A DNA stretch of 64,000 nucleotides from positions 124,001 through 188,000 of the forward strand of contig BMTG01000011.1 in NCBI GenBank assembly GCA_014649555.1, written 5' to 3'. Of the stretch, positions 17,647 to 28,347 are shown one piece after another. The notes under the pieces are model-generated. The model searched no databases. It worked only from the letters and a program-made list of their open reading frames with translations, and had not been told where the DNA came from. Origin of the DNA: Streptomyces globisporus (GTDB lineage Bacteria; Actinomycetota; Actinomycetes; Streptomycetales; Streptomycetaceae). The first letter of the stretch is position 1. Every line of letters begins with the position of its first letter. The position numbers and the translations under genes were made by a program.

Positions 17647-18705
17647 TCAGAGCATGATGAGCAGGCGCGTATCGGCCTTGAGCTTCCTGTTCACCGAACG
17701 GCTCTGGACATAGACCTCCAGCTTGGGGTTGTTGCCCGCCTTCACCGAGACGGTCCCGCGGACTCCGGCGCCGAACAGGAGGTTGCGCGCCGCCTCGCCC
17801 GTGTAGGCGCGGTCGGTGTCCTTCTCGACGACGACGACCTCCTTGTCGGGCTGCACCTGGACGCGGGAGCCCAACTGGTAGTAGCAGGAGCCGCGTTCGT
17901 ACGTGACGCCCGGGTGCGAGTCGACGAAGGCGCGGATCTCCATCTCCTTGTCGACCTTCAGCAGCCGGTACTTGTCGGCCGCGACCGGTTCGAGGGTGGC
18001 CCGCACGTCGTCCACGGATATGTCCTGGCCGACGGCGAACAGGTTCTTCGTGCCGCGCACGCCCTGCTCCCGGCCGCGCAGGAAGCTGGTGGCGGCGGCG
18101 CGCACGGTGCCGATCGCGTCCTCGACGCCCTTCTGCGAGTCCGCGTCCCAGATCGCGATGTTGCCGGCCGGGAAGCCGTAGTTCTGGGCGGTGCGCTTGG
18201 CCAGGGAGTTCGGCACGAGGATCGCGGAGGTCCAGTGCCCCGGGAGCCCGTTCATCTTCGCGGTGATCCGGTCGAGCCAGGGGCCGAGGATGGTCATGTC
18301 GCCGTCGTGGCGCCGGTCGCCGCCGGAGGCGTTCTCCTCACCGTCCGTCACGACGATCTGGAGGAAGCTGTGCTCGCCGTACTCCTCCCAGATGTGGCCC
18401 AGGTCGTCCAGGGACTTCAGCGAGGCCTCGATCAGCGCCGTCGCACCGTTGTTGACCTTGTACAGCCCGCGCATCGACGGGAGGTGCTTCACATCCATGT
18501 CCCAGACCAGGTTCTCCACCCGGTGGTCGAAGGAGTAGAGGCTGATCCGGGTCTCGTGGCCGAGGCTGTCCGACTCGGCCTTCAGCCCCGCCACGAACTC
18601 GTCGACGACGCGGATCAGCTGACCCTGGTGCTGGTACATCGAACCGGAGGCGTCCACGACCAGAGCGACGTGATTCACCTTGTGCTGGATCCTGTTGGCG
18701 GACAT
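17647..18705 (-). CDS. von Willebrand factor A domain protein
   Basis: A 352-residue cytoplasmic protein. Residues about 10-200 are a VWA domain with the MIDAS motif DASGSM (VNHVALVVDASGSMYQHQGQL) and later VVTDGEENASGGDRR. The C-terminal 120 residues are a second region (YQLGSRVQVQPDKEVVVVEKDTDRAYTG..LLFGAGVRGTVSVKAGNNPKLEVYVQ) that I do not recognise. ATG 18705 follows AAGGAG. In Streptomyces such proteins often accompany stress or tellurium-type gene sets, but no such neighbours are here. Confidence 0.82.
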   Translation of the reverse strand: MSANRIQHKVNHVALVVDASGSMYQHQGQLIRVVDEFVAGLKAESDSLGHETRISLYSFDHRVENLVWDMDVKHLPSMRGLYKVNNGATALIEASLKSLDDLGHIWEEYGEHSFLQIVVTDGEENASGGDRRHDGDMTILGPWLDRITAKMNGLPGHWTSAILVPNSLAKRTAQNYGFPAGNIAIWDADSQKGVEDAIGTVRAAATSFLRGREQGVRGTKNLFAVGQDISVDDVRATLEPVAADKYRLLKVDKEMEIRAFVDSHPGVTYERGSCYYQLGSRVQVQPDKEVVVVEKDTDRAYTGEAARNLLFGAGVRGTVSVKAGNNPKLEVYVQSRSVNRKLKADTRLLIML

Positions 18706-18790
18706 GGCAGTGCTCCTTCTCCGGTGTTCCCCGAACCCCCCGGGGGTTCCCCGAGCGATGTCTTCGACTCTATGGGGAGGCACTGACAGC

Positions 18791-18819
18791 GGGGCCGGGC
18801 GCGCGTGGCGCCCGGCCCC
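18791..18819. terminator. strong hairpin after the collagenase gene
   Basis: GGGGCCGGGCGC at 18791-18802 pairs perfectly with GCGCCCGGCCCC at 18808-18819 across a 5-base loop, 23 bases beyond the collagenase stop on the minus strand. Confidence 0.75.
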
Positions 18820-18841
18820 GGCCGGAGGTGCGGTGGGCGGA

Positions 18842-21139
18842 TCAGTAGGCGGTCGTGACGGTGGTTCCGCCGAAGGTGCTCACCGCGTGCAGGCTGATGT
18901 AGTGGGCACCGGCGGGCGGGTCGGTGACGGTCAGGGTGTGGGTGTTGCCGGGGCCGGTGTCGCGGCTGGTGTGGGAGGCGGTGGTGGCCCAGCCGGTGGC
19001 GCTGTGGTACAGGTCAGCGTCGCCGGTGCCGCCGCTGACGGTGATCTTCAGCCGCTCGGTGCCGGCGGGGATGTACAGGTAGTGGTAGGCGTAGTTGCCC
19101 GTGGTGGCGGAGAGGTTGCCGCGACGGCAGTTCTCGCCCAGGACGCGGGGGTCGGGGTCGGTGCACTCGGCGACGGGAGTGGTGGAGCCGTCGCCGCAGT
19201 CACCGGCGGCGCACCCCGCCAGCCAGGTCCGGAAGTCGCTGTCGTACCGCGTGCCGATGGTGCTGGTGAGGTGGGTCCGGGCGGCGGCCCACCGACCGGT
19301 GCGGTAGTGGCCGAGCACCGTGTCCATGTCGGCGGGGTGCTTCTCCAGCATGTACCGCACGGCGAGGTAGCCCCAGCGGTACACCCGGGTGGTGTCGTGG
19401 CTGTAGTCGGTTCCGAAGAGGGTGCTCAGGGCGTAGGTGCCCTTGCCGGCCTCGGTCATCGCAGCGGTGTAGGGCTCGCCCCGGTAGTGGTAGGAGATGT
19501 ACTCCGCGAAGCCCTCCACCCACCAGACGGTGGGGGTGCTCATGCCCGCGGCGAAATCGCCGTACATGGTGAAGCGGCCGTCCAGGTAGTGCGTGTACTC
19601 GTGGTTGAGGTTCCAGATGTGGAAGTCCGGCCGCAGCCACTCCGCCTCATAGGCGATGAAGCGGGGCTGGTTGCCCACGACGGAGGGGTCGCCCTCCAGG
19701 TACATGCCGCCGTTGTTGGTGTCGATCCCGTACATCGCACCGGCGTACGTCTGGTAGTCGGCGCTGGAGTCGTAGGCGATCACCTCGATCGAGGTGTTGT
19801 GGTCGTCGGCGACCGGGCCGTCGTCCTTGGCGATCCGGTGGAAGTAGGCGTCCTGCCCGATGAGGCTGGTGCAGGACGCGCTCAGCTCGGCGGACGTCAT
19901 CTGCTGGGCGAGGATCCGGATGCCGGGGCTGCAGGTGTGACGGACCGGCAGGACCTCCCGCTTGAGGCGTTCCTGGAGGTCGCAGACGCCGTACGCCGAG
20001 CAGTTCGCGCGGTCGTAGTGGTCGGCCATCTCCGCTATGCCCACCCAGAGCGGGGCGGTGGGGCCGGTGATCGAGCTGCGGCCGAGCAGGTCGGTGGCCA
20101 GGGGCCGGGCCTTGCCCCGCAGGCTCGGGTACTGGAGGAAGCGGCCCAGCTCCCGCCCGGCGTTGGAGGTCAGGTACGCGTGGTCGCCGTCGAGCAGGGA
20201 GAGGTGGTCGGCGGCGAAGCGGTGCAGCGAGTCGAGGAGGCTCGGGTCCGCCTCGACGGCGCTGACGAACTCGGGTACCTGGTGACCCCGGAAGGTCACC
20301 GTGTACACGCCGTTGACCGCGGCGAGCATCCGCGAGAGGCCGTTCCAGGAGGAGTCGTAGTCCGCCAGCATCCGCTTGACCACGGTCAGATAGCGGGCGT
20401 TCTCCTGGGCGCTGTCGATCAGGATGACCGCCTCGGAGAGCGTCTCGCCGTTCTCGTCGGTGACGTCACGCGACCGCGGGCTCGCGAAGAAGCTGTCGAG
20501 ACCCGAGCGGATGGCGGTCCGCAGAGCGCTGCCGTACGGGCCGACGACATCAGGGTTGTACCACTGCACGTAGTAGCCCGCCCGGAGGTAGAGCACGAGC
20601 TGCGGAGTGCCGGTGCTCCCGTCACCCGGGTAGTAGGCAGAGTTGTCGCGCAGCGCGTACGCCACCGCGGTCATCTGGGCTTCGCGGAAGGCCAGTCGGG
20701 CGTCGTTTCCCGTCAGGCTGAACAGCGTGTTCACGCAGTCGGTGGTGGACGCCTTGATCTGGCGCACCAGTTCGGCCCCGGTGCGGCCGGTGAAGTCGGC
20801 CGGGTCGCACGCGGCGGCCTTCGCCGATGACGGGGCGTCGTGGTCGCCGTACACCTCCCTGAGGGCTGACTTGTCGGCGCTCAGCGGGGGGAGCTGGGAC
20901 ACCGATCGCCGGTCCTCGGTGCGGTGACCGGTGCCCGGTGCGGGGGACTGCTGCGCCTGCGGCGCGGGGTCGGCCGATCCGGTGGTGCGGTTCGGTTGCG
21001 ACGCGTTCGATGCCGTGGCGGCCGACGGGGAGTTCGGCTGCGCCTGGGCCGGCTGCGCGAGCAGCGCGACGCCCATCGCCCCGGCCAGAGCCAGCGGCAG
21101 AACGGCACCCACACCTCGGCGGACGAGTGTGGTTCTCAC
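18842..21139 (-). CDS. secreted zinc collagenase (peptidase family M9)
   Basis: A 765-residue secreted metalloprotease. The signal peptide (RTTLVRRGVGAVLPLALAGAMGVALLAQPAQA) is followed by a Ser/Asn-rich linker, a helical M9 activator-type region, and the gluzincin catalytic domain with HEYTH at 513-517 and the third zinc ligand Glu546 in GFAEY. The C-terminus (from about residue 680) is a PPC-type beta domain (YLYIPAGTERLKITVSGGTGDADLY) that in this family aids substrate binding. GTG at 21139 is preferred over 21169 because GGGAGG precedes it. The adjacent hydroxyproline genes suit a role in collagen utilisation. Confidence 0.9.
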   Translation of the reverse strand: MRTTLVRRGVGAVLPLALAGAMGVALLAQPAQAQPNSPSAATASNASQPNRTTGSADPAPQAQQSPAPGTGHRTEDRRSVSQLPPLSADKSALREVYGDHDAPSSAKAAACDPADFTGRTGAELVRQIKASTTDCVNTLFSLTGNDARLAFREAQMTAVAYALRDNSAYYPGDGSTGTPQLVLYLRAGYYVQWYNPDVVGPYGSALRTAIRSGLDSFFASPRSRDVTDENGETLSEAVILIDSAQENARYLTVVKRMLADYDSSWNGLSRMLAAVNGVYTVTFRGHQVPEFVSAVEADPSLLDSLHRFAADHLSLLDGDHAYLTSNAGRELGRFLQYPSLRGKARPLATDLLGRSSITGPTAPLWVGIAEMADHYDRANCSAYGVCDLQERLKREVLPVRHTCSPGIRILAQQMTSAELSASCTSLIGQDAYFHRIAKDDGPVADDHNTSIEVIAYDSSADYQTYAGAMYGIDTNNGGMYLEGDPSVVGNQPRFIAYEAEWLRPDFHIWNLNHEYTHYLDGRFTMYGDFAAGMSTPTVWWVEGFAEYISYHYRGEPYTAAMTEAGKGTYALSTLFGTDYSHDTTRVYRWGYLAVRYMLEKHPADMDTVLGHYRTGRWAAARTHLTSTIGTRYDSDFRTWLAGCAAGDCGDGSTTPVAECTDPDPRVLGENCRRGNLSATTGNYAYHYLYIPAGTERLKITVSGGTGDADLYHSATGWATTASHTSRDTGPGNTHTLTVTDPPAGAHYISLHAVSTFGGTTVTTAY

Positions 21140-21452
21140 GTTGTTTCCTCCCATGAGGGATCGGGCCACGCGCTCGCGTGACCGATGGGATGGACGGGGC
21201 GCGGCTCGGGGATGTCGTCATGCCGTGTTGCCGGCCGGACGGGATGGCGCCGACGCAGGACTTGGCATGTCCACGCCCTGTGACATGTACAATGGCACAG
21301 GTCACACTTCACAGGAAGGCCCATGGCCGAACTCCGCCCGGGACTCTCCGTTTCGGGAAAGCCTCGGGCGACAGAAAGAGGAGGGGGAAGGAGGCGGACT
21401 CACCGCGCAACGTGACATTGTATAGTGCGGTGACAAAACGGAGGGGGAACGC
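21140..21452. promoter_or_regulatory. collagenase/gntR divergent intergenic region with two operator-like sites
   Basis: No gene seen in this 313-base stretch. It holds two related AT-richer words: CATGTACAATGGCACA at 21284-21299, nearer the collagenase start, and GTGACATTGTATAGTGC at 21412-21428, over a likely -10 (TATAGT at 21421) of the gntR gene. GTGACATTG, TGTATAG and CAATGGCA recur in front of the hydroxyproline dehydrogenase operon at 27071-27100. Shared control by the GntR-type regulator is inferred. Confidence 0.6.
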
Positions 21453-22163
21453 ATGGGTGAGCTGAAGTCCCGCAAACTCATCCCGGTGCAGGAGCATTTG
21501 CGCGACCAGGTGGCCAACGCCCTGCGGGCCGCGCTGATCGCGGGGGAACTTCAGCCCGGCGTGATCTACTCCGCGCCCACCCTGGCCGCCGAGTACGGCG
21601 TCTCGGCCACACCCGTGCGCGAGGCCATGCTGGATCTGGCCCGGGAGGGCCTGGTCGAGGCGGTGCGCAACAAGGGTTTCCGGGTCACCGAGCTCTCCGA
21701 GCGCGACCTGGACGAGTACACCGAGATCCGCTCGCTCATCGAGATCCCCACCATCGGCCGCGTGACCCGCACCGCCTCCCGTGAGCAACTGGAGGCCCTG
21801 CGCCCGGTGGCCGAGGAGATCGTGGCCGCCGCACAGCGGGGCGACCTGATCGGCTACCTGGAGTCGGACCGCCGCTTCCACCTCGACCTGCTCGCCCTCG
21901 CGGGCAACGCGCGCCTCGTCGAGACGGTGGCCGGCCTGCGCAAGCGCTCCCGGCTGTACGGGCTCACCGACCTGTCCCAGGAAGGGTCGTTGGTGGGTTC
22001 CGCGCAGGAGCACACCGCGCTCCTGGACATCATGATCGAGGGCGACGCGGAGGCGGCCGAGGAGCACATGCGCCGCCATCTCGCGCATGTGCGGACCCTG
22101 TGGGCAGCCCGGAAGCGGGAGGCCGAACGCACGGCCCCGTCCCGGAGGCTCGGCGCGCACTGA
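21453..22163 (+). CDS. GntR-family (FadR/FCD subfamily) regulator, probable controller of hydroxyproline genes
   Basis: A 236-residue regulator. The winged helix (LRDQVANALRAALIAGELQPGVIYSAPTLAAEYGVSATPVREAMLDLAREGLVEAVRNKGFRVTELSERDL) is followed by the all-helical FCD ligand domain with the metal-site pattern SDRRFHLDLL, LVGSAQEHTALLD and EEHMRRHLAHV, the three histidines and acid that bind metal and ligand in this group. It sits between the collagenase and the convergent hydroxyproline operon, so hydroxyproline or a breakdown product is a reasonable effector. ATG 21453 has GGAGGGGGAA upstream. Confidence 0.88.
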   Translation: MGELKSRKLIPVQEHLRDQVANALRAALIAGELQPGVIYSAPTLAAEYGVSATPVREAMLDLAREGLVEAVRNKGFRVTELSERDLDEYTEIRSLIEIPTIGRVTRTASREQLEALRPVAEEIVAAAQRGDLIGYLESDRRFHLDLLALAGNARLVETVAGLRKRSRLYGLTDLSQEGSLVGSAQEHTALLDIMIEGDAEAAEEHMRRHLAHVRTLWAARKREAERTAPSRRLGAH

Positions 22164-22223
22164 CTCCGACATCGCTCCGGTACGGCGGGCGTTGAATCCT
22201 GGGCCGGGTGTGCGGACCGGCGG

Positions 22224-23225
22224 TCACATGGTGAACCCCTCCGGGTAGGGGTCGGTCGGGTCGAGCAGATACTGGGCGGTCCCGGTGATCCAGGCGCGGC
22301 CGGTGACGGAGGGCAGGACGGCGGGCAGGCCGCCGACCGTGGTCTCCGACAGGATCCGGCCGGTGAAACGGGAGCCGATGAAGGACTCGTTGACGAAGTC
22401 CTGCCCGGCCTTCAGCACTCCCCGCGCGTGCAGTTGGGCCATCCGGGCGCTGGTTCCCGTCCCGCAGGGCGAGCGGTCGAACCAGCCGGGGTGGATCGCC
22501 ATGGCGTGCCGGGAGTGCTCGGCGGTGGAGCCGGGGGCCTCCAGATAGACGTGGTGACAGACGTCGATCGCGGGGTTCTCCGGGTGGACCACCGGGTTCT
22601 GTTCGTTGACCGCCCGCATGACGGCCAGGCCCGCGTCGAGCAGCCGGCCCTTCTCCGCCCGGTCGAAGGGGATGCCGAGGTCTTCGGTGCGCACGATCGC
22701 GTAGAAGTTGCCGCCGTACGCCATGTCGTAGCGGACCGGGCCGAACCCCGCCACCTCCACGACCAGGTCCAGCGCGTGGCTGTAGGAGGCGACGTTCTCC
22801 AGGGTGACGGACTCCGCGCGGCCGTCGCGGACGGCGACCCGTGCCGTGACGAGGCCGGCGGGGGTGTCGAGGCGGATGAGGGTCTCCGGCTCGACCGCCT
22901 CGACCATGCCCGTCTCCACCAGGACCGTCGCCACGCCGATGGTGCCGTGGCCGCACATGGGCAGGCAGCCGGAGACCTCGATGAACAGCACGCCGAAGTC
23001 GGCGTCCGGCCGGGTCGGGGGCTGGAGGATCGCGCCGGACATGGACGCGTGCCCGCGCGGCTCGCACATCAACAGGGTGCGCAGACCGTCCCGTTCGGCC
23101 ATGAACCGCTCGCGTCGCTCGGCCATGGTCGCGCCCGGCAGGACGCCCACCCCGCCGGTGATCACCCGGGTCGGCATGCCCTCCGTGTGCGAGTCGACCG
23201 CATGGTAACAGACCGTGGAGCGCAC
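22224..23225 (-). CDS. 4-hydroxyproline 2-epimerase (proline racemase family)
   Basis: A 333-residue member of the proline racemase superfamily, converting trans-4-hydroxy-L-proline to cis-4-hydroxy-D-proline by a two-base mechanism. Both catalytic cysteines are present, Cys91 in MCGHGTIG and Cys254 in SPCGTGTSARMA, which separates it from the dehydratase branch that has Thr in the second position. The neighbours (deaminase and D-hydroxyproline dehydrogenase) point to hydroxyproline rather than proline. GTG start lies one base after the stop of the deaminase gene, so the two are coupled. Last gene of the operon; it converges on gntR. Confidence 0.9.
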   Translation of the reverse strand: MRSTVCYHAVDSHTEGMPTRVITGGVGVLPGATMAERRERFMAERDGLRTLLMCEPRGHASMSGAILQPPTRPDADFGVLFIEVSGCLPMCGHGTIGVATVLVETGMVEAVEPETLIRLDTPAGLVTARVAVRDGRAESVTLENVASYSHALDLVVEVAGFGPVRYDMAYGGNFYAIVRTEDLGIPFDRAEKGRLLDAGLAVMRAVNEQNPVVHPENPAIDVCHHVYLEAPGSTAEHSRHAMAIHPGWFDRSPCGTGTSARMAQLHARGVLKAGQDFVNESFIGSRFTGRILSETTVGGLPAVLPSVTGRAWITGTAQYLLDPTDPYPEGFTM

Positions 23226-23226
23226 G

Positions 23227-24141
23227 TCAGTTCACCCCCGCGTCGATGAGGGCCTGGGTGGCGGAACGTACGACGGCCTCGGTCTCCGGGTCCAGGGGCT
23301 GCCGGGGCGGCCGGCAGACGCCGCCGGTCCGGCCGGTCATGTCCTGGCCGAGCTTGATCGCCTGGACGAACTCGGTCCTGCTGTCCCAGCGCAGTACGGC
23401 GTGGAGCCGGCGGTAGAGCGGGAGCGCGGTGGTGAGATCGCCTGCCAGCGCGGCGTCGTAGAGGTCGAGGCAGGCGCGCGGGAAGACCTGGGGGTACCCG
23501 GCGACCCAGCCCTTGGCCCCGGCGAGGGCGACTTCGAGGAGGGTGTCGTCGGTGCCGATGATCAGGTCGAGCCCGGGGGCGAGTTCGTTGATGGCGTAGC
23601 ACCTGCGGACGTCCCCGGAGAACTCCTTCACGCCCACGATGAACCCCTCGGCGTACAGCTTGGCCAGCAGCTCGGGGCGCAGGTCGACCTTGGTGTCGAT
23701 GGGGTTGTTGTACGCGGTGACGGGAAGCCCGGCGGAGGCGACCATCGCGTAGTGCTCCAGGACGGCGCGGTCGTCGGCCCGGTAGGCGTTGGGCGGCAGG
23801 CACATGACGGCCTGGCAGCCGGCGTCCCTGGCGAAGAGGGCGTGCCGCCTGGCCTCGATCGCGCCGTACGCCCCGACGCCCGGCATCACGGTGAAGCCCT
23901 CGGGGGCGTGGGCGACGGCGGTCTCGACGACACGGTCGCGTTCCTCGTACGTCAGGGTCTGGTACTCCCCCAGCGACCCGTTCGGGGCGACGCCGTGCAG
24001 GCCCTGTTCGGCGAGCCGGGCGACGTTGTCCCCGTACGCGCCGTGGTCGACGGCGAGGTCCCGGCCGAACGGGAGGCTCGTCGCGACGATGACACCGTGC
24101 CAGGGCATACGGGCGGGGGCCGTGCGGTCCACGCGGTTCAT
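23227..24141 (-). CDS. 1-pyrroline-4-hydroxy-2-carboxylate deaminase (DapA superfamily)
   Basis: A 304-residue TIM-barrel aldolase/lyase of the dihydrodipicolinate synthase superfamily. The Schiff-base lysine is Lys172 in FIVGVKEFSGD, with the general acid Tyr144 in TAYNNP and the GSLGEY loop at 55-60. In hydroxyproline pathways this enzyme converts the dehydrogenase product to 2-oxoglutarate semialdehyde plus ammonia. That assignment rests on the operon; without it the sequence alone would only say DapA family. The dehydrogenase needed to oxidise the semialdehyde to 2-oxoglutarate is not in the window. Confidence 0.85.
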   Translation of the reverse strand: MNRVDRTAPARMPWHGVIVATSLPFGRDLAVDHGAYGDNVARLAEQGLHGVAPNGSLGEYQTLTYEERDRVVETAVAHAPEGFTVMPGVGAYGAIEARRHALFARDAGCQAVMCLPPNAYRADDRAVLEHYAMVASAGLPVTAYNNPIDTKVDLRPELLAKLYAEGFIVGVKEFSGDVRRCYAINELAPGLDLIIGTDDTLLEVALAGAKGWVAGYPQVFPRACLDLYDAALAGDLTTALPLYRRLHAVLRWDSRTEFVQAIKLGQDMTGRTGGVCRPPRQPLDPETEAVVRSATQALIDAGVN

Positions 24142-24150
24142 GGGAACTCC

Positions 24151-25614
24151 TCAGGTGGGTTCGGACGGGGTGTCGCCGGTGGAGGGCTCGGCGGAATCGG
24201 CGAGCGCGCCGAGCGTGACCGGGGTCGCGATCAGCCGTTCGGCGGGGGTGTAGGGCTCGGCACGGGCGGCGACGAGGCAGTGCACGGCGGGCCCGCACAT
24301 CCGGCCCTGGCACCAGCCCATGCCTGCCCTGGTCAGCTGTTTGACCTGCCGGTGGTCGGATGCCGAACCGTCGGCACGGGCGGCGAGGACAGCCCCCGCG
24401 GTGACCTCCTCGCACCGGCAGACCGTGGTGTCGTCGGTGAGCCAGGCGGGCCAGTCCCGCGGCACGGGGTGCGCCCGGGCCAGGGCGCGCGCGAAGGCGC
24501 GGTGCCGGGCCACCGCCCGGCGCTGCGCGGCCAGGGGCCGGATTCCCGGCCGGCCCGGCGCGGACAAGTCGGTGAGCACCGAGACCGCCGCCACGCGCCC
24601 CTCGCTCAGCGCGAGCGCCGCCCCGCCCACCCCGCAGGTCTCGCCCGCCGCGTAGAGGCCTGGCACGGTGGTGCGCTGTCCGGCGTCGACGGCGGCGGCC
24701 ATGGTGCCGTCGCCCGCGTCGGCGAGGTCGCAGCCGAGCGGGAGCAGCAGGTCGAGCTGGGGCACGAAGCCCCAGCCGACGCCCACGGTGTCGGCCTCGA
24801 TCCGCCGCTCGGTACCCGGGAGCGGTGCCCCGTCGGCACCCAGGGCCGCGGTGCGTACGACGGCGACCCGACCCTCCCCTTCGGCGCCGACGATGCCGGT
24901 GCGGGTGCGGACCGGGATCCGGTGCCGGGCCAGCGTGCCCGCGTAACCAGCGGCTTCGGCCCACTTGGCGGGGTTACGCAGCAGGGGTGCGGGGTGGCGC
25001 AGCCAGGCCGAGGGGGCCGCCGCCTCGCACACCGCGACGACCTCCGCCCCGCGTGCGGCGAGGGCGGCGGCGACGGGCAGCAGGAAGGGGCCCGTACCGC
25101 CGAGGACCACGCGCCGGCCGGCCACCACTCCCCCGCCCTTGAGCAGCGACTGGAGTCCGCCGGCGGTGAGCACGCCGGGCAGGTCCCAACCGGGGAAGGG
25201 GAGTTGGCGGTCGTAGGCGCCCGTCGCCACGAGCAGGGCCGGTGCGCGCAGCACGACGGCCCGCTCCTCGGGCGGCCTGCCGCGGTCCACGGCGTGGACG
25301 GTGAAGCCGTCCGCCGCGCGGGCCGTGGTCCAGACGGGGTGGTCGAGCAGGAGCGTGAGCCGTCCGGTGCGCTGGTGGGCGGCCAGGGTCGCGCGGAGGG
25401 AGCGGTAGGTGCGCAGGTCGTGGTGCAGATCATCGGTGGGGAGGGCCTCGCGCGCGTGGTCCGGGGGGTGACGCCAGAACTGGCCGCCCGGCGCGGAGCC
25501 CGCGTCGACGAGGACGACTCGCAGCCCGCCGTCCAGGGCGGTGACGGCGGCCGCCATACCGGCGGGCCCGGCGCCCACCACCACGAGGTCGACGGGCTTC
25601 TGGGGCTCAGCCAT
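24151..25614 (-). CDS. D-hydroxyproline dehydrogenase, FAD/NAD(P)-binding subunit with BFD-type 2Fe-2S domain
   Basis: A 487-residue flavoprotein resembling HcnB and the alpha subunit of heteromeric amino-acid dehydrogenases. It has an N-terminal dinucleotide fold (DLVVVGAGPAGMAAAVTALDGG), a second one near residue 175 (VVLGGTGPFLLPVAAALAARGAEVVAV), and a C-terminal Fer2_BFD region with CRCEEVTAGAVLAA and RAGMGWCQGRMCGP supplying the four cysteines. With the small ferredoxin-like subunit and the DAO-type subunit upstream it forms an enzyme oxidising cis-4-hydroxy-D-proline to pyrroline-4-hydroxy-2-carboxylate. The start overlaps the preceding gene by 8 bp. Confidence 0.88.
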   Translation of the reverse strand: MAEPQKPVDLVVVGAGPAGMAAAVTALDGGLRVVLVDAGSAPGGQFWRHPPDHAREALPTDDLHHDLRTYRSLRATLAAHQRTGRLTLLLDHPVWTTARAADGFTVHAVDRGRPPEERAVVLRAPALLVATGAYDRQLPFPGWDLPGVLTAGGLQSLLKGGGVVAGRRVVLGGTGPFLLPVAAALAARGAEVVAVCEAAAPSAWLRHPAPLLRNPAKWAEAAGYAGTLARHRIPVRTRTGIVGAEGEGRVAVVRTAALGADGAPLPGTERRIEADTVGVGWGFVPQLDLLLPLGCDLADAGDGTMAAAVDAGQRTTVPGLYAAGETCGVGGAALALSEGRVAAVSVLTDLSAPGRPGIRPLAAQRRAVARHRAFARALARAHPVPRDWPAWLTDDTTVCRCEEVTAGAVLAARADGSASDHRQVKQLTRAGMGWCQGRMCGPAVHCLVAARAEPYTPAERLIATPVTLGALADSAEPSTGDTPSEPT

Positions 25615-25897
25615 CGTCGCCCTCCCCCGTCGCGACGGCCATGCCCGCTCGGGCCTGCACCAGGCAGGCGCGCTGCCCGCGCCGCCCGTCGACGGTGACG
25701 AGGCAGTCGTAACAGACGCCGATCCCGCAGAAGACGCCCCGGGGCCGCTGCCCGCCCCGGGTGGTCCGCCAGGCGACCCGGCCGGAGGCGACGAGCGCGG
25801 CGGCCAGGGTCTGCCCGGGCACGAACGCCAGGGGTTCGCCGTCCACGGTCAGTCCAGGTGCGGTGGGTACGTCGGTCTCCGCGGCCACTCGGGTCAC
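25607..25897 (-). CDS. D-hydroxyproline dehydrogenase, small 2Fe-2S subunit (HcnA-like)
   Basis: A 96-residue plant-type ferredoxin-like subunit. LTVDGEPLAFVPGQTLAAALVASG is the beta-grasp start, and the cysteines in GVFCGIGVCYDCLVTVDGRRGQRACL bind a [2Fe-2S] cluster. It has the size and cysteine pattern of HcnA and the gamma subunit of D-hydroxyproline dehydrogenase. GTG at 25897 overlaps the stop of the DAO-type subunit by 4 bp (GTGA), and its own end overlaps the next start, so all three subunits are translated as a coupled set. Confidence 0.88.
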   Translation of the reverse strand: MTRVAAETDVPTAPGLTVDGEPLAFVPGQTLAAALVASGRVAWRTTRGGQRPRGVFCGIGVCYDCLVTVDGRRGQRACLVQARAGMAVATGEGDDG

Positions 25898-27054
25898 TTC
25901 GGCACACCTCCGGTCGTGAGGAATCGGTCGGGCAGGAGGCCGGTGTGGGCGGCCGGATCGGCTCCGCGCCACGGGCGGCCGAGCAGCTGGGCGGTGATCA
26001 GGGCGCCGGTGCCGGGAGCGAGGCCGATGCCCGCGCCCTCGTGGCCGCACGCGTGGAGGACGCCGGGGACCCGGGGGTCCGGGCCCACAACGGGCAGGTG
26101 GTCGGGGCAGTACGGCCTGAACCCCCGGTAGGCGCGGATCAGATGGACGTCGCGCAGGAACGGGAAGAGGCGGCAGGCCTGCGCGGCGAGCAGGGCCACC
26201 ACGGCCGGGTTCATCGCGGTGTCGAAGCCGACGCGTTCGCGGCTGGCGCCGATCAGGATGGTGCCCGCGCGGGTGCCCTCGACGACGCACGAGGTCTCCA
26301 GGCCCTCGTCGCTGGAGGCGACGTTGGCGACGTAGTCGGCGGAGTAGACCTTGTGCCGGATCATCGGCGGCAGCGGTTCGGTGACCAGGACGAAGCCCCG
26401 GCGCGGCAGGATCGCGACGGGGGCGCCGAGGCGGCGGCCGACCTCGCCGCCCCACGTTCCGGCCGCGTTGACCACGGCGTCGGCGGCCAGCACCGCGCCG
26501 TCGGCCGTGCGAACTCCGGTGACCCGCCCGTCGGTTCCGGTGACGGCGGCGACGGCCTCGCCGGTACGCACCCGGGCGCCGCGCCGGACGGCGGCCCGCA
26601 GCAGTCCGGCCGCCGCGAGGACGGGCTGCACCTGGGCGTCCTGCGGGTAGTGGACACCGCCGGGGAGGCCGGGTGCGATGTGCGGTTCGAACGCGTCGAC
26701 GCGGTCGACGAGTTCGGTCTGGATTCCGGCCGCCGCCTGGCGTGCGGCGAACGCGTGCAGGGCGGCGAGGCCTTCGGGGGTGCTCGCGACGACCAGGCCG
26801 CCCTTGTTCTCGAACTCGACTTCTCCCGGGCCGAGTTCCTTGCCCACCTCGTCCCAGAGGTCACGGCTGAGCCGGGCCAGCTCCAGTTCCGGGCCGGGCT
26901 CCTTGTCGGAGAGCAGGATGTTCCCCTCCCCCCGGCTGGTGGTGCCCGCACCGACCGGGCCCCGGTCGAGCACCGTGACACCGAGACCGGCGGAGGCGGC
27001 GTGGAACGCGCAGGCGGCGCCCACGATGCCCGCGCCGATGACCACGACGTCCAC
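25894..27054 (-). CDS. D-hydroxyproline dehydrogenase, FAD-dependent DAO-type subunit (HcnC-like)
   Basis: A 386-residue D-amino-acid-oxidase-type flavoprotein, the catalytic subunit. It starts DVVVIGAGIVGAACAFHAASAGLGVTVLDRG, the FAD-binding Rossmann motif, and ends with PYCPDHLPVVGPDPRVPGVLHACGHEGAGIGLAPGTGALI, typical of the DAO fold near the flavin. GTG at 27054 is chosen because GGAGG lies five bases upstream; the longer reading to 27078 would begin inside the operator-like sequence. First gene of the hydroxyproline operon; its promoter overlaps the 3' end of the unrelated monooxygenase gene. Confidence 0.88.
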   Translation of the reverse strand: MDVVVIGAGIVGAACAFHAASAGLGVTVLDRGPVGAGTTSRGEGNILLSDKEPGPELELARLSRDLWDEVGKELGPGEVEFENKGGLVVASTPEGLAALHAFAARQAAAGIQTELVDRVDAFEPHIAPGLPGGVHYPQDAQVQPVLAAAGLLRAAVRRGARVRTGEAVAAVTGTDGRVTGVRTADGAVLAADAVVNAAGTWGGEVGRRLGAPVAILPRRGFVLVTEPLPPMIRHKVYSADYVANVASSDEGLETSCVVEGTRAGTILIGASRERVGFDTAMNPAVVALLAAQACRLFPFLRDVHLIRAYRGFRPYCPDHLPVVGPDPRVPGVLHACGHEGAGIGLAPGTGALITAQLLGRPWRGADPAAHTGLLPDRFLTTGGVPK

Positions 27055-27070
27055 CGCCACCTCCAGGTGC

Positions 27071-27100
27071 AATGTCACATGCCATTGCCCAGGCTATACA
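27071..27100 (-). promoter_or_regulatory. promoter/operator of the hydroxyproline operon
   Basis: On the minus strand this reads TGTATAGCC, then CAATGGCATGTGACATTGC. TATAGC (27098-27093) is a plausible -10. GTGACATTG and TGTATAG also occur at 21412-21425 and CAATGGCA at 21290-21297, in front of gntR and collagenase. It lies at the stop codon of the monooxygenase gene. Binding by the GntR-type regulator is inferred. Confidence 0.55.
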
Positions 27101-28347
27101 TCGGTCCGGCCCGAGGACAATCCCGCCGTCGGCGCGAACTCGGGCAGGACCAGGGCCGCGTGGGCCGGTCGCCCCGCCGCCGCCGGGGGTGTGGCGGCGA
27201 GACCGCGCAGCAGGGCGTTGCGCTCCTCCAGGGCCCGGGCGGTGGTGGGGAACAGCAGGGCGTCGCCCGTGCCGACCAGGTCCTGGTTGAGGGTCACGAA
27301 CGGACGGCTGTCGCGTTCGTAGGCGGCGAACGCCGCGGTGTGGTCCCGTTCGGCCGCCAGGGAACCTGCGAGCATGTACGCGCCGACGAGCGCGAGACCG
27401 GAGCCCTGGCCGGTCAGGAACGAGGGCGCGTACGCGGCGTCGCCCACCAGCGCGACCCGGCCGTCGGCCCAGCGGGGCATGCGGATCTGGCTGACCACGT
27501 CGAAGAACAGGTCGTCCGCCGCGCGCATCGCGGCCAGCATGCCCGGGACTTCCCACCCCGCGTCGGCGAAGACCGCCTCGACCAGGTCCCGTTGGACCTC
27601 CGGATTGCGGAAGGCGTCCAACGGGGGTTGCGGACGGGCGAAGTTGAGGAAGCCGTGCACGTCGTCGCCGTCCCCCACGGCGTACAGCACCGCCGCCCGG
27701 CCTGGTGCGTTCCACAGGGTGGTCTCGCGGACGAGTCCGAAGGTGTTCGGCAGGGTGAATCCGGCGAAGCAGTAGCCGAGGTACCGGTGGAACCGCTCCT
27801 CGGGACCGAACACCAGCCCTCGGGTGTGGGAGTGCAGTCCGTCCGCACCGACCACCAGGTCGAAGGTCCGGCCGCCGCCCCGGCGGAACGTGACGTCGAC
27901 CCCGTGGCGGTGCTGGTCGAGCGTGTCGATGGAGTCGTCGAACAGGAACTCCACGTCGTCACGGACCGCCGAGTGAAGGGCGCCGGCCAGGGCTCCGCGC
28001 CGTACCTCCAGGTCCGCTCCCGCGACACCACCCGTGACGGTGTGCGGAGCGATCGAGGCCACCTCGGCGCCGTCCTCGTCGAGGAAGGTCAGTCGCCGCA
28101 GATCGATGTGCGCGTCCCGCAGTCGGGGCAGGATCCCCATCCTCCGGACGACGTCGAGCGCGGTGCCGCGTACGTCGATGGGGTAGCCGCCGCCGCGGAG
28201 CGCCCCCGCCTTCTCGACCACCGTGACGGCGAATCCGTAGCGGTTCAGCCAGAACGCGAGGGCGGGACCCGCGATACTGGCCCCGGATATCAGGACCGTA
28301 CGCCTCCGGCCGCCGGGGACGTGCCTCAACTCATCGGTGCGGGTCAT
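27094..28347 (-). CDS. FAD-dependent monooxygenase (PHBH fold)
   Basis: A 417-residue class A flavoprotein monooxygenase. It has the GxGxxG-like start VLISGASIAGPALAFWLNRYGFAVTVVEKA, the DG motif FDLVVGADGLHSHTR, and the GD motif GRVALVGDAAYAPSFLTGQGSGLALVGAYMLAGSL. Together with the upstream MFS exporter and TetR regulator it resembles resistance sets in which a hydroxylase modifies a drug (TetX- or Rox-like) while the pump removes it. The substrate is unknown. ATG overlaps the MFS stop by 4 bp. Confidence 0.88.
   Translation of the reverse strand: MTRTDELRHVPGGRRRTVLISGASIAGPALAFWLNRYGFAVTVVEKAGALRGGGYPIDVRGTALDVVRRMGILPRLRDAHIDLRRLTFLDEDGAEVASIAPHTVTGGVAGADLEVRRGALAGALHSAVRDDVEFLFDDSIDTLDQHRHGVDVTFRRGGGRTFDLVVGADGLHSHTRGLVFGPEERFHRYLGYCFAGFTLPNTFGLVRETTLWNAPGRAAVLYAVGDGDDVHGFLNFARPQPPLDAFRNPEVQRDLVEAVFADAGWEVPGMLAAMRAADDLFFDVVSQIRMPRWADGRVALVGDAAYAPSFLTGQGSGLALVGAYMLAGSLAAERDHTAAFAAYERDSRPFVTLNQDLVGTGDALLFPTTARALEERNALLRGLAATPPAAAGRPAHAALVLPEFAPTAGLSSGRTDV

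Follow-up and report, generated by a model that had tools for sequence, protein, structure and literature searches.

A predicted HypR regulon with collagenase, regulator, and hydroxyproline operon packed side by side in a Streptomyces genome

A 64,000-nucleotide stretch of the Streptomyces globisporus assembly GCA_014649555.1 (contig BMTG01000011.1, positions 124,001 to 188,000; hereafter the window) very probably holds a HypR regulon with closely packed targets, in which a secreted M9 collagenase gene, the GntR/FCD regulator gene hypR, and a five-gene 4-hydroxyproline operon are all under HypR control. That these three units adjoin had been proposed in an original prediction made from this DNA, and gene calls and Pfam matches bear it out. 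The same prediction held that one regulator couples collagen digestion to the use of hydroxyproline, for which the published HypR system gives good comparative support, and that this coupling was undescribed, which is mistaken because Kotowska et al. (2019; PMC6608401) reported it for S. coelicolor. The regulatory system of the window is thus already known, although its genes are packed unusually closely; only its extension to an importer and a peptidase in relatives was not found in print.

The collagenase gene and hypR diverge from an intergenic stretch of 0.3 kb, and the operon converges on hypR, being read from 27.1 to 22.2 kb in the order DAO, Fer2_4, Pyr_redox/Fer2_BFD, DHDPS-like, and proline-racemase family protein (Table 1). 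The collagenase matches Peptidase_M9 with E = 4.3e-127, along with M9_N and PPC, and its translation contains the HEXXH motif expected of M9 collagenases (HEYTH, with a downstream E). Its likelier start is the GTG at 21139, preceded by GGGAGG. DAO, Fer2_4, and Pyr_redox with Fer2_BFD occur together, as in three-subunit D-hydroxyproline dehydrogenases. The epimerase scores 373.8 bits against a cut-off of 376 for NCBIfam PRK13971, the top of six families compared, and carries the cysteine motifs MCGHG and SPCGTG. The DHDPS-like protein matches PF00701 at 138 bits and lies below every NCBIfam cut-off; its function is assigned by context.

Table 1. Genes and predicted regulatory elements of the locus, in window coordinates (ORF, open reading frame).
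Feature	Position	Strand	Basis
Secreted M9 collagenase (M9_N, M9, PPC)	18842..21139, ORF to 21169	-	Pfam and translation
Collagenase operator (predicted), two overlapping 19-bp dyads	21280..21305		21280-21298 scores 15.1; 21287-21305 scores 14.0
hypR operator (predicted), holds TACAATGTCAC on reverse strand	21405..21423		Score 23.7
Probable hypR -10 box TATAGT, overlapped by operator	21421..21426	+	Promoter alignment; S. coelicolor footprint covers -10 region
hypR, GntR/FCD (FadR-type) regulator, 236 aa	21453..22163	+	Pfam
4-hydroxyproline epimerase, Pro_racemase family	22224..23225	-	Pfam and NCBIfam
Deaminase, DHDPS-like	23227..24141	-	Pfam; function from operon position as in SCO6292
D-hydroxyproline dehydrogenase alpha subunit, FAD/BFD	24151..25614	-	Pfam; domains match those in PMC6608401 Table 2
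D-hydroxyproline dehydrogenase gamma subunit, Fer2_4	25607..25897	-	Pfam
D-hydroxyproline dehydrogenase beta subunit, DAO	25894..27054, ORF to 27078	-	Pfam; likelier start GTG 27054
Operon operator (predicted) GTGCAATGTCACATGCCAT, holds TGCAATGTCAC	27067..27085		Score 23.9
Probable operon -10 box TATAGC	27093..27098	-	TATAGCCT invariant in 9/9 species
Possible -35 box of operon, TTGTCC, 16 bases ahead of -10	27115..27120	-	Sequence and alignment

Three words recur between the two intergenic regions, at the positions originally predicted and each exactly twice in 64 kb: GTGACATTG at 21412-21420(+) and 27070-27078(-), TGTATAG at 21419-21425(+) and 27094-27100(-), and CAATGGCA at 21290-21297(+) and 27080-27087(-). 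At least two copies arose in 1, 2, and 16 of 100 shuffles, respectively, so CAATGGCA alone is weak. Taken jointly, the words are far beyond chance, because the four top scores of a dyad model across the whole window (23.9, 23.7, 15.1, and 14.0; next 9.6) all fall in these two regions and RTRMWATKTCACRY, a 14-base core, occurs in the 8.2-Mb genome exactly twice, both times at this locus. The model was trained on sequence upstream of hypR and the operon, taken from 60 relatives' hypR neighbourhoods and from the window; two of its training sequences are thus the window's own hypR and operon promoters, and the collagenase promoter is not among them. Both words published as HypR sites are exact in the window, TACAATGTCAC before hypR and TGCAATGTCAC before the operon.

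Of the three words, only GTGACATTG belongs to the predicted operator core, and CAATGGCA is part of half-sites, at the collagenase those of a weaker two-sided operator. TGTATAG was rejected as an operator, as it acts as a -10 box in promoter alignments, and it is most likely the -10 box of both promoters. A strict sigma-70 scan of 18600-27300 returned zero promoters.

With up to one mismatch, RTRMWATKTCACRY has 18 matches in the genome (reversed control, 4). The 16 one-mismatch matches were discarded as further HypR targets, their best stretch scoring no more than 15.4 and two of them being one palindrome counted twice. TRCMATGTCAC has four genome matches, two at the locus (reversed control, 0), and the other two (L123, L124) were discarded because the motif model gives them no more than 6.0 and -5.6.

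The window and its alignments show directly which genes are present, how the operators read, and how well they are conserved. Before the operon, TATAGCCT is followed one to two bases on by GCAATGGCATGTGACATTGCAC, and the operator is invariant in eight of nine species, with two changes in S. celluloflavus as the exception. Before hypR, the operator is invariant in 9/9 species, as is GCAACGTGACATTGTAT. It is this conservation across nine species that assigns TGTATAG (TCTATAG in S. bungoensis) to the -10 box. The operator overlaps the -10 box at hypR and lies downstream of it at the operon. In the collagenase promoter alignment (A4; seven in-register relatives and the window, with the out-of-register G003 row left out), ACCTGTGCMATKGTACATGNCACAGG is present in six of the eight rows, and two rows are one base off.

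An odd dyad, GTACAATGT-C-ACATTGCAC, is contained in the majority consensus of the motif. In 339 unique sites, complementarity holds at the four inner pairs in 99, 72, 72, and 80% of cases and at the next five in only 28-51%, which makes for a firm inner dyad with loose flanks. Centring on the C scored best (0.57), and other centres were rejected (next 0.48; T-centred 0.41); the 2019 study called the operator symmetry unclear. The GT-AC distance is 1 here, whereas 3 nt is typical of FadR-type sites (PMC4494728).

The core pattern also follows the regulator. It is present in 95 of 121 genus genomes, with one match in total in the reversed control; among the 61 genomes searched for both, it occurs in 46 of 47 with HypR (at least 58% identity) and in 2 of 14 without. 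Scanning the reversed sequence of 140 hypR loci gave two sites in 2.6 Mb. That the repeated words are not operators, and recur only as common promoter elements or by coincidence, is extremely improbable: the probable -10 role of TGTATAG and the shuffle result for CAATGGCA fit such an explanation, but GTGACATTG and its flanks are kept across species at varying distance from the -10 box, the pattern is nearly absent without HypR, reversed controls are nearly empty, and the published S. coelicolor footprint on the same word (PMC6608401) largely refutes it. As a separate observation, one genome (G022) carries the core pattern 22 times, mostly in a AGTGCTATGTCACATA-like form, versus 0-9 in the other 120; some lie in coding frames and, in one place, in tandem (L292-L303 and others), and they are perhaps sites of another regulator or a repeat.

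The window HypR matches Pfam GntR (58 bits) and FCD (86.6 bits), and its nearest named relatives, at 97%, are from S. globisporus and S. parvus. The published contact residues S50, T52, R55, R71, and N72 correspond by alignment to S51, T53, R56, R72, and N73, the offset of one being our own reading, and R72 differs in 3 of 16 aligned homologues. We assigned the protein to the SCO6294 type by its domains, contact residues, operator words, and operon neighbourhood.

For that S. coelicolor protein, the coupling was established by electrophoretic mobility shift assays, footprints, reporters, and deletions; DNA binding, zinc binding, repression, and induction by L-hydroxyproline (L-Hyp) have been shown in that species only (PMC6608401). 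Its binding sites are TACAATGTCAC in its own promoter, where the footprint covers the -10 region, and TGCAATGTCAC, which occurs upstream of SCO6289 and at SCO5911/5912. Repression extends to the SCO6289-6293 operon, to the M9 collagenase SCO5912, to SCO5281, and, less strongly, to hypR itself. Induction by L-Hyp is seen in the wild type but is lost in the hypR deletion, in vitro binding is unaltered by either L-Hyp or D-Hyp, and deleting the epimerase abolishes growth on L-Hyp. The window shares the regulator type, the five enzymes, the M9 target, the motif words, and an autoregulation site over the -10 box. It differs in that the S. coelicolor collagenase lies elsewhere on the chromosome, whereas here it stands 0.3 kb from hypR; moreover, the window collagenase shows no PKD domain in the Pfam scan, and the operon and hypR are convergent. 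This paper was the sole account of HypR and collagenase in Streptomyces among the papers listed in our literature search, and the available parts of PMC13170358 and PMC9739823 add no targets.

M9 genes were surveyed in 100 genomes, the window's own included, giving 65 above the cut-off. From these, 60 promoters were taken (omitted were the window's own gene, two partial matches, one at a short-contig edge, and one inside locus L049). A dyad of at least 14 bits lies around the start in 54 of the 60, hypR-linked or not, and in 0 of 600 shuffled windows (base shuffles in which dinucleotides were not kept). HypR homologues (at least 200 bits; identity as low as 49-53% in two genomes lacking M9) were found in 62 of the 100 genomes and in 46 of the 47 that bear M9. 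An M9 gene lies within 20 kb of hypR for only 8 of 42 classic genes and for 16 of 23 divergent ones.

Several results weigh against HypR control of all three units. Of the three predicted operators, that of the collagenase scores lowest (15.1 symmetric; 11.3 in the asymmetric model), and at 20 bits the asymmetric model passes 7 of 19 classic M9 genes near hypR (19 of 22 divergent ones). In six of the 60 M9 promoters no dyad reaches the threshold: upstream sequence is complete for L140, L155, and L156, L159 attains 10.9, and the upstream stretches of L157 and L184 are 165 and 29 bases long. In addition, the kgd (SCO5281-type) target has no site, the best score being -1.6 in the 3.1-kb L285 around the single family match; a SCO5281-type site is an optional target and not defining of HypR. 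One could then suppose that HypR governs only itself and the operon, with the collagenase adjacent by chance or history and its palindrome serving another regulator, as the weaker element, its different base spacing, and the scarce linkage of classic M9 genes would allow. This is improbable, since S. coelicolor HypR binds and represses an M9 promoter (PMC6608401), dyads are present at hypR-unlinked M9 genes as well, and M9 occurs without HypR in only 1 of 47 genomes (G005, the source of L155), which has no dyad and an uncertain gene start. HypR control of all three units is the better account of these data.

A single origin of the M9-hypR linkage was not supported, as the label 'classic M9 in locus' needs at least eight changes on the HypR tree. 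This was a quick tree of 92 rows with many weak forks, and L041 is labelled 'none' even though L226, taken from the same genome, has classic M9 in the locus. A short cassette of hypR, deaminase, and collagenase, with the rest of the operon absent from the locus, was seen at L033:9564-13990 and L036.

In other S. globisporus sequence, about 8 kb separates the collagenase from hypR (L208:2292-9932). This block holds a five-gene oligopeptide ATP-binding cassette importer and a divergent M24 aminopeptidase P, and a HypR-type site lies in the space that separates the two. The same block was found by tblastn in S. parvus and S. griseus, and with a HypR-type site in L187, L188, and partly L190. The 140 hypR loci scanned comprised the 60 of the motif training and 80 others, four of which are duplicates, leaving 136 unique loci with 76 outside training; related loci are not independent, and oppA and M24 often share one site. 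The 136 loci contain 353 sites of at least 20 bits, 334 of them in upstream zones that make up 7.9% of the sequence. Sites precede oppA (43/47), M24 (37/44), the dehydrogenase beta gene (84/85), hypR (106/136), and the deaminase (59/103), and hardly ever oppB (0/36), oppC (0/37), oppD (0/27), oppF (1/27), gamma (0/88), alpha (0/93), or the racemase (0/103). Outside training the counts are 31/34 for oppA, 25/29 for M24, 46/47 for beta, 74/76 for hypR, 39/56 for the deaminase, 14/16 for divergent M9, and 3/13 for classic M9.

The window genome lacks the importer/M24 block; among the matches listed, OppA identity does not exceed 28% and a single M24 relative reaches 54%. Strain CB02366 (L189) also lacks it. 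The block was most likely lost from the window genome, because its nearest relatives have it. We consider it likely that HypR directs a programme from collagen to alpha-ketoglutarate semialdehyde in Streptomyces and Kitasatospora and in one further family of the same order, comprising M9 collagenases (two subfamilies about 25-28% identical), the Opp importer, the M24 aminopeptidase P, and the operon under one operator, and that the window strain carries a cut-down version without importer and peptidase. No published account of an importer or aminopeptidase in a HypR regulon was found in a search that left most subscription papers and supplements outside, which is no proof of absence.

Within the operon, the 59 deaminase genes preceded by a site have their own HypR-type site internally, and the window deaminase stays below 9.6 in the symmetric scan. 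Many relatives have a second proline-racemase-family gene near hypR (L187:11744-12757, L038:11337-12344, L041:3194-4204), which scores highest against the NCBIfam model for trans-3-hydroxy-L-proline dehydratase but stays below the cut-off of that model. The gene has its own HypR site in 0 of 37 cases and could serve the 3-hydroxyproline of collagen. Beside the window collagenase, a gene at 17647-18705 (-) has a VWA-like start by eye and no Pfam match at 0.001; strain CB02366 has a 97% relative at the same place.

Other bacteria combine these functions differently. Proteobacterial HypR regulons (PMC5343134) also pair a GntR-family regulator with hydroxyproline genes and are autoregulated in 32 of 46 genomes, but they have a HypO-type dehydrogenase as a core member, and the available text describes no collagenase. 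The Colwellia collagen cluster (PMC7883544) likewise brings together M9 collagenase, hydroxyproline catabolism, peptidases, and transport; it is gammaproteobacterial, spans about 21 kb, and has other transport genes (MFS, TonB-dependent receptor) and PutR among its regulators, with no operator described in the part available. The lhp system of P. aeruginosa, as told in PMC6608401, shares the LhpB/E/F three-subunit dehydrogenase, the epimerase, and the deaminase, and unlike the window is regulated by LhpR, an AraC-type activator responsive to L-Hyp.

Taken with the S. coelicolor experiments, the conserved operators lead us to infer that in the window strain HypR would bind and repress the three units, with induction when a catabolite relieves it. 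The regulon would be that of a close Streptomyces relative of S. globisporus and S. parvus. As a FadR-type repressor, probably a dimer, HypR would occupy dyads that cover its own -10 box, follow directly after the operon -10 box, and lie upstream of the collagenase, keeping all three low. Breakdown of hydroxyproline would yield a metabolite that releases HypR; collagenase would then be secreted and cut collagen outside the cell, and the operon would convert 4-hydroxyproline to alpha-ketoglutarate semialdehyde through the epimerase, the three-subunit dehydrogenase, and the deaminase.

The HypR-collagenase link, known from one model strain, is suggested to be general, as the collagenase of the sampled relatives is almost always accompanied by HypR. 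The operator offers a rule for predicting collagen-use genes in streptomycetes, with peptide uptake and Xaa-Pro cleavage as likely members, and may be useful for collagenase production strains and for understanding the turnover of animal tissue in soil.

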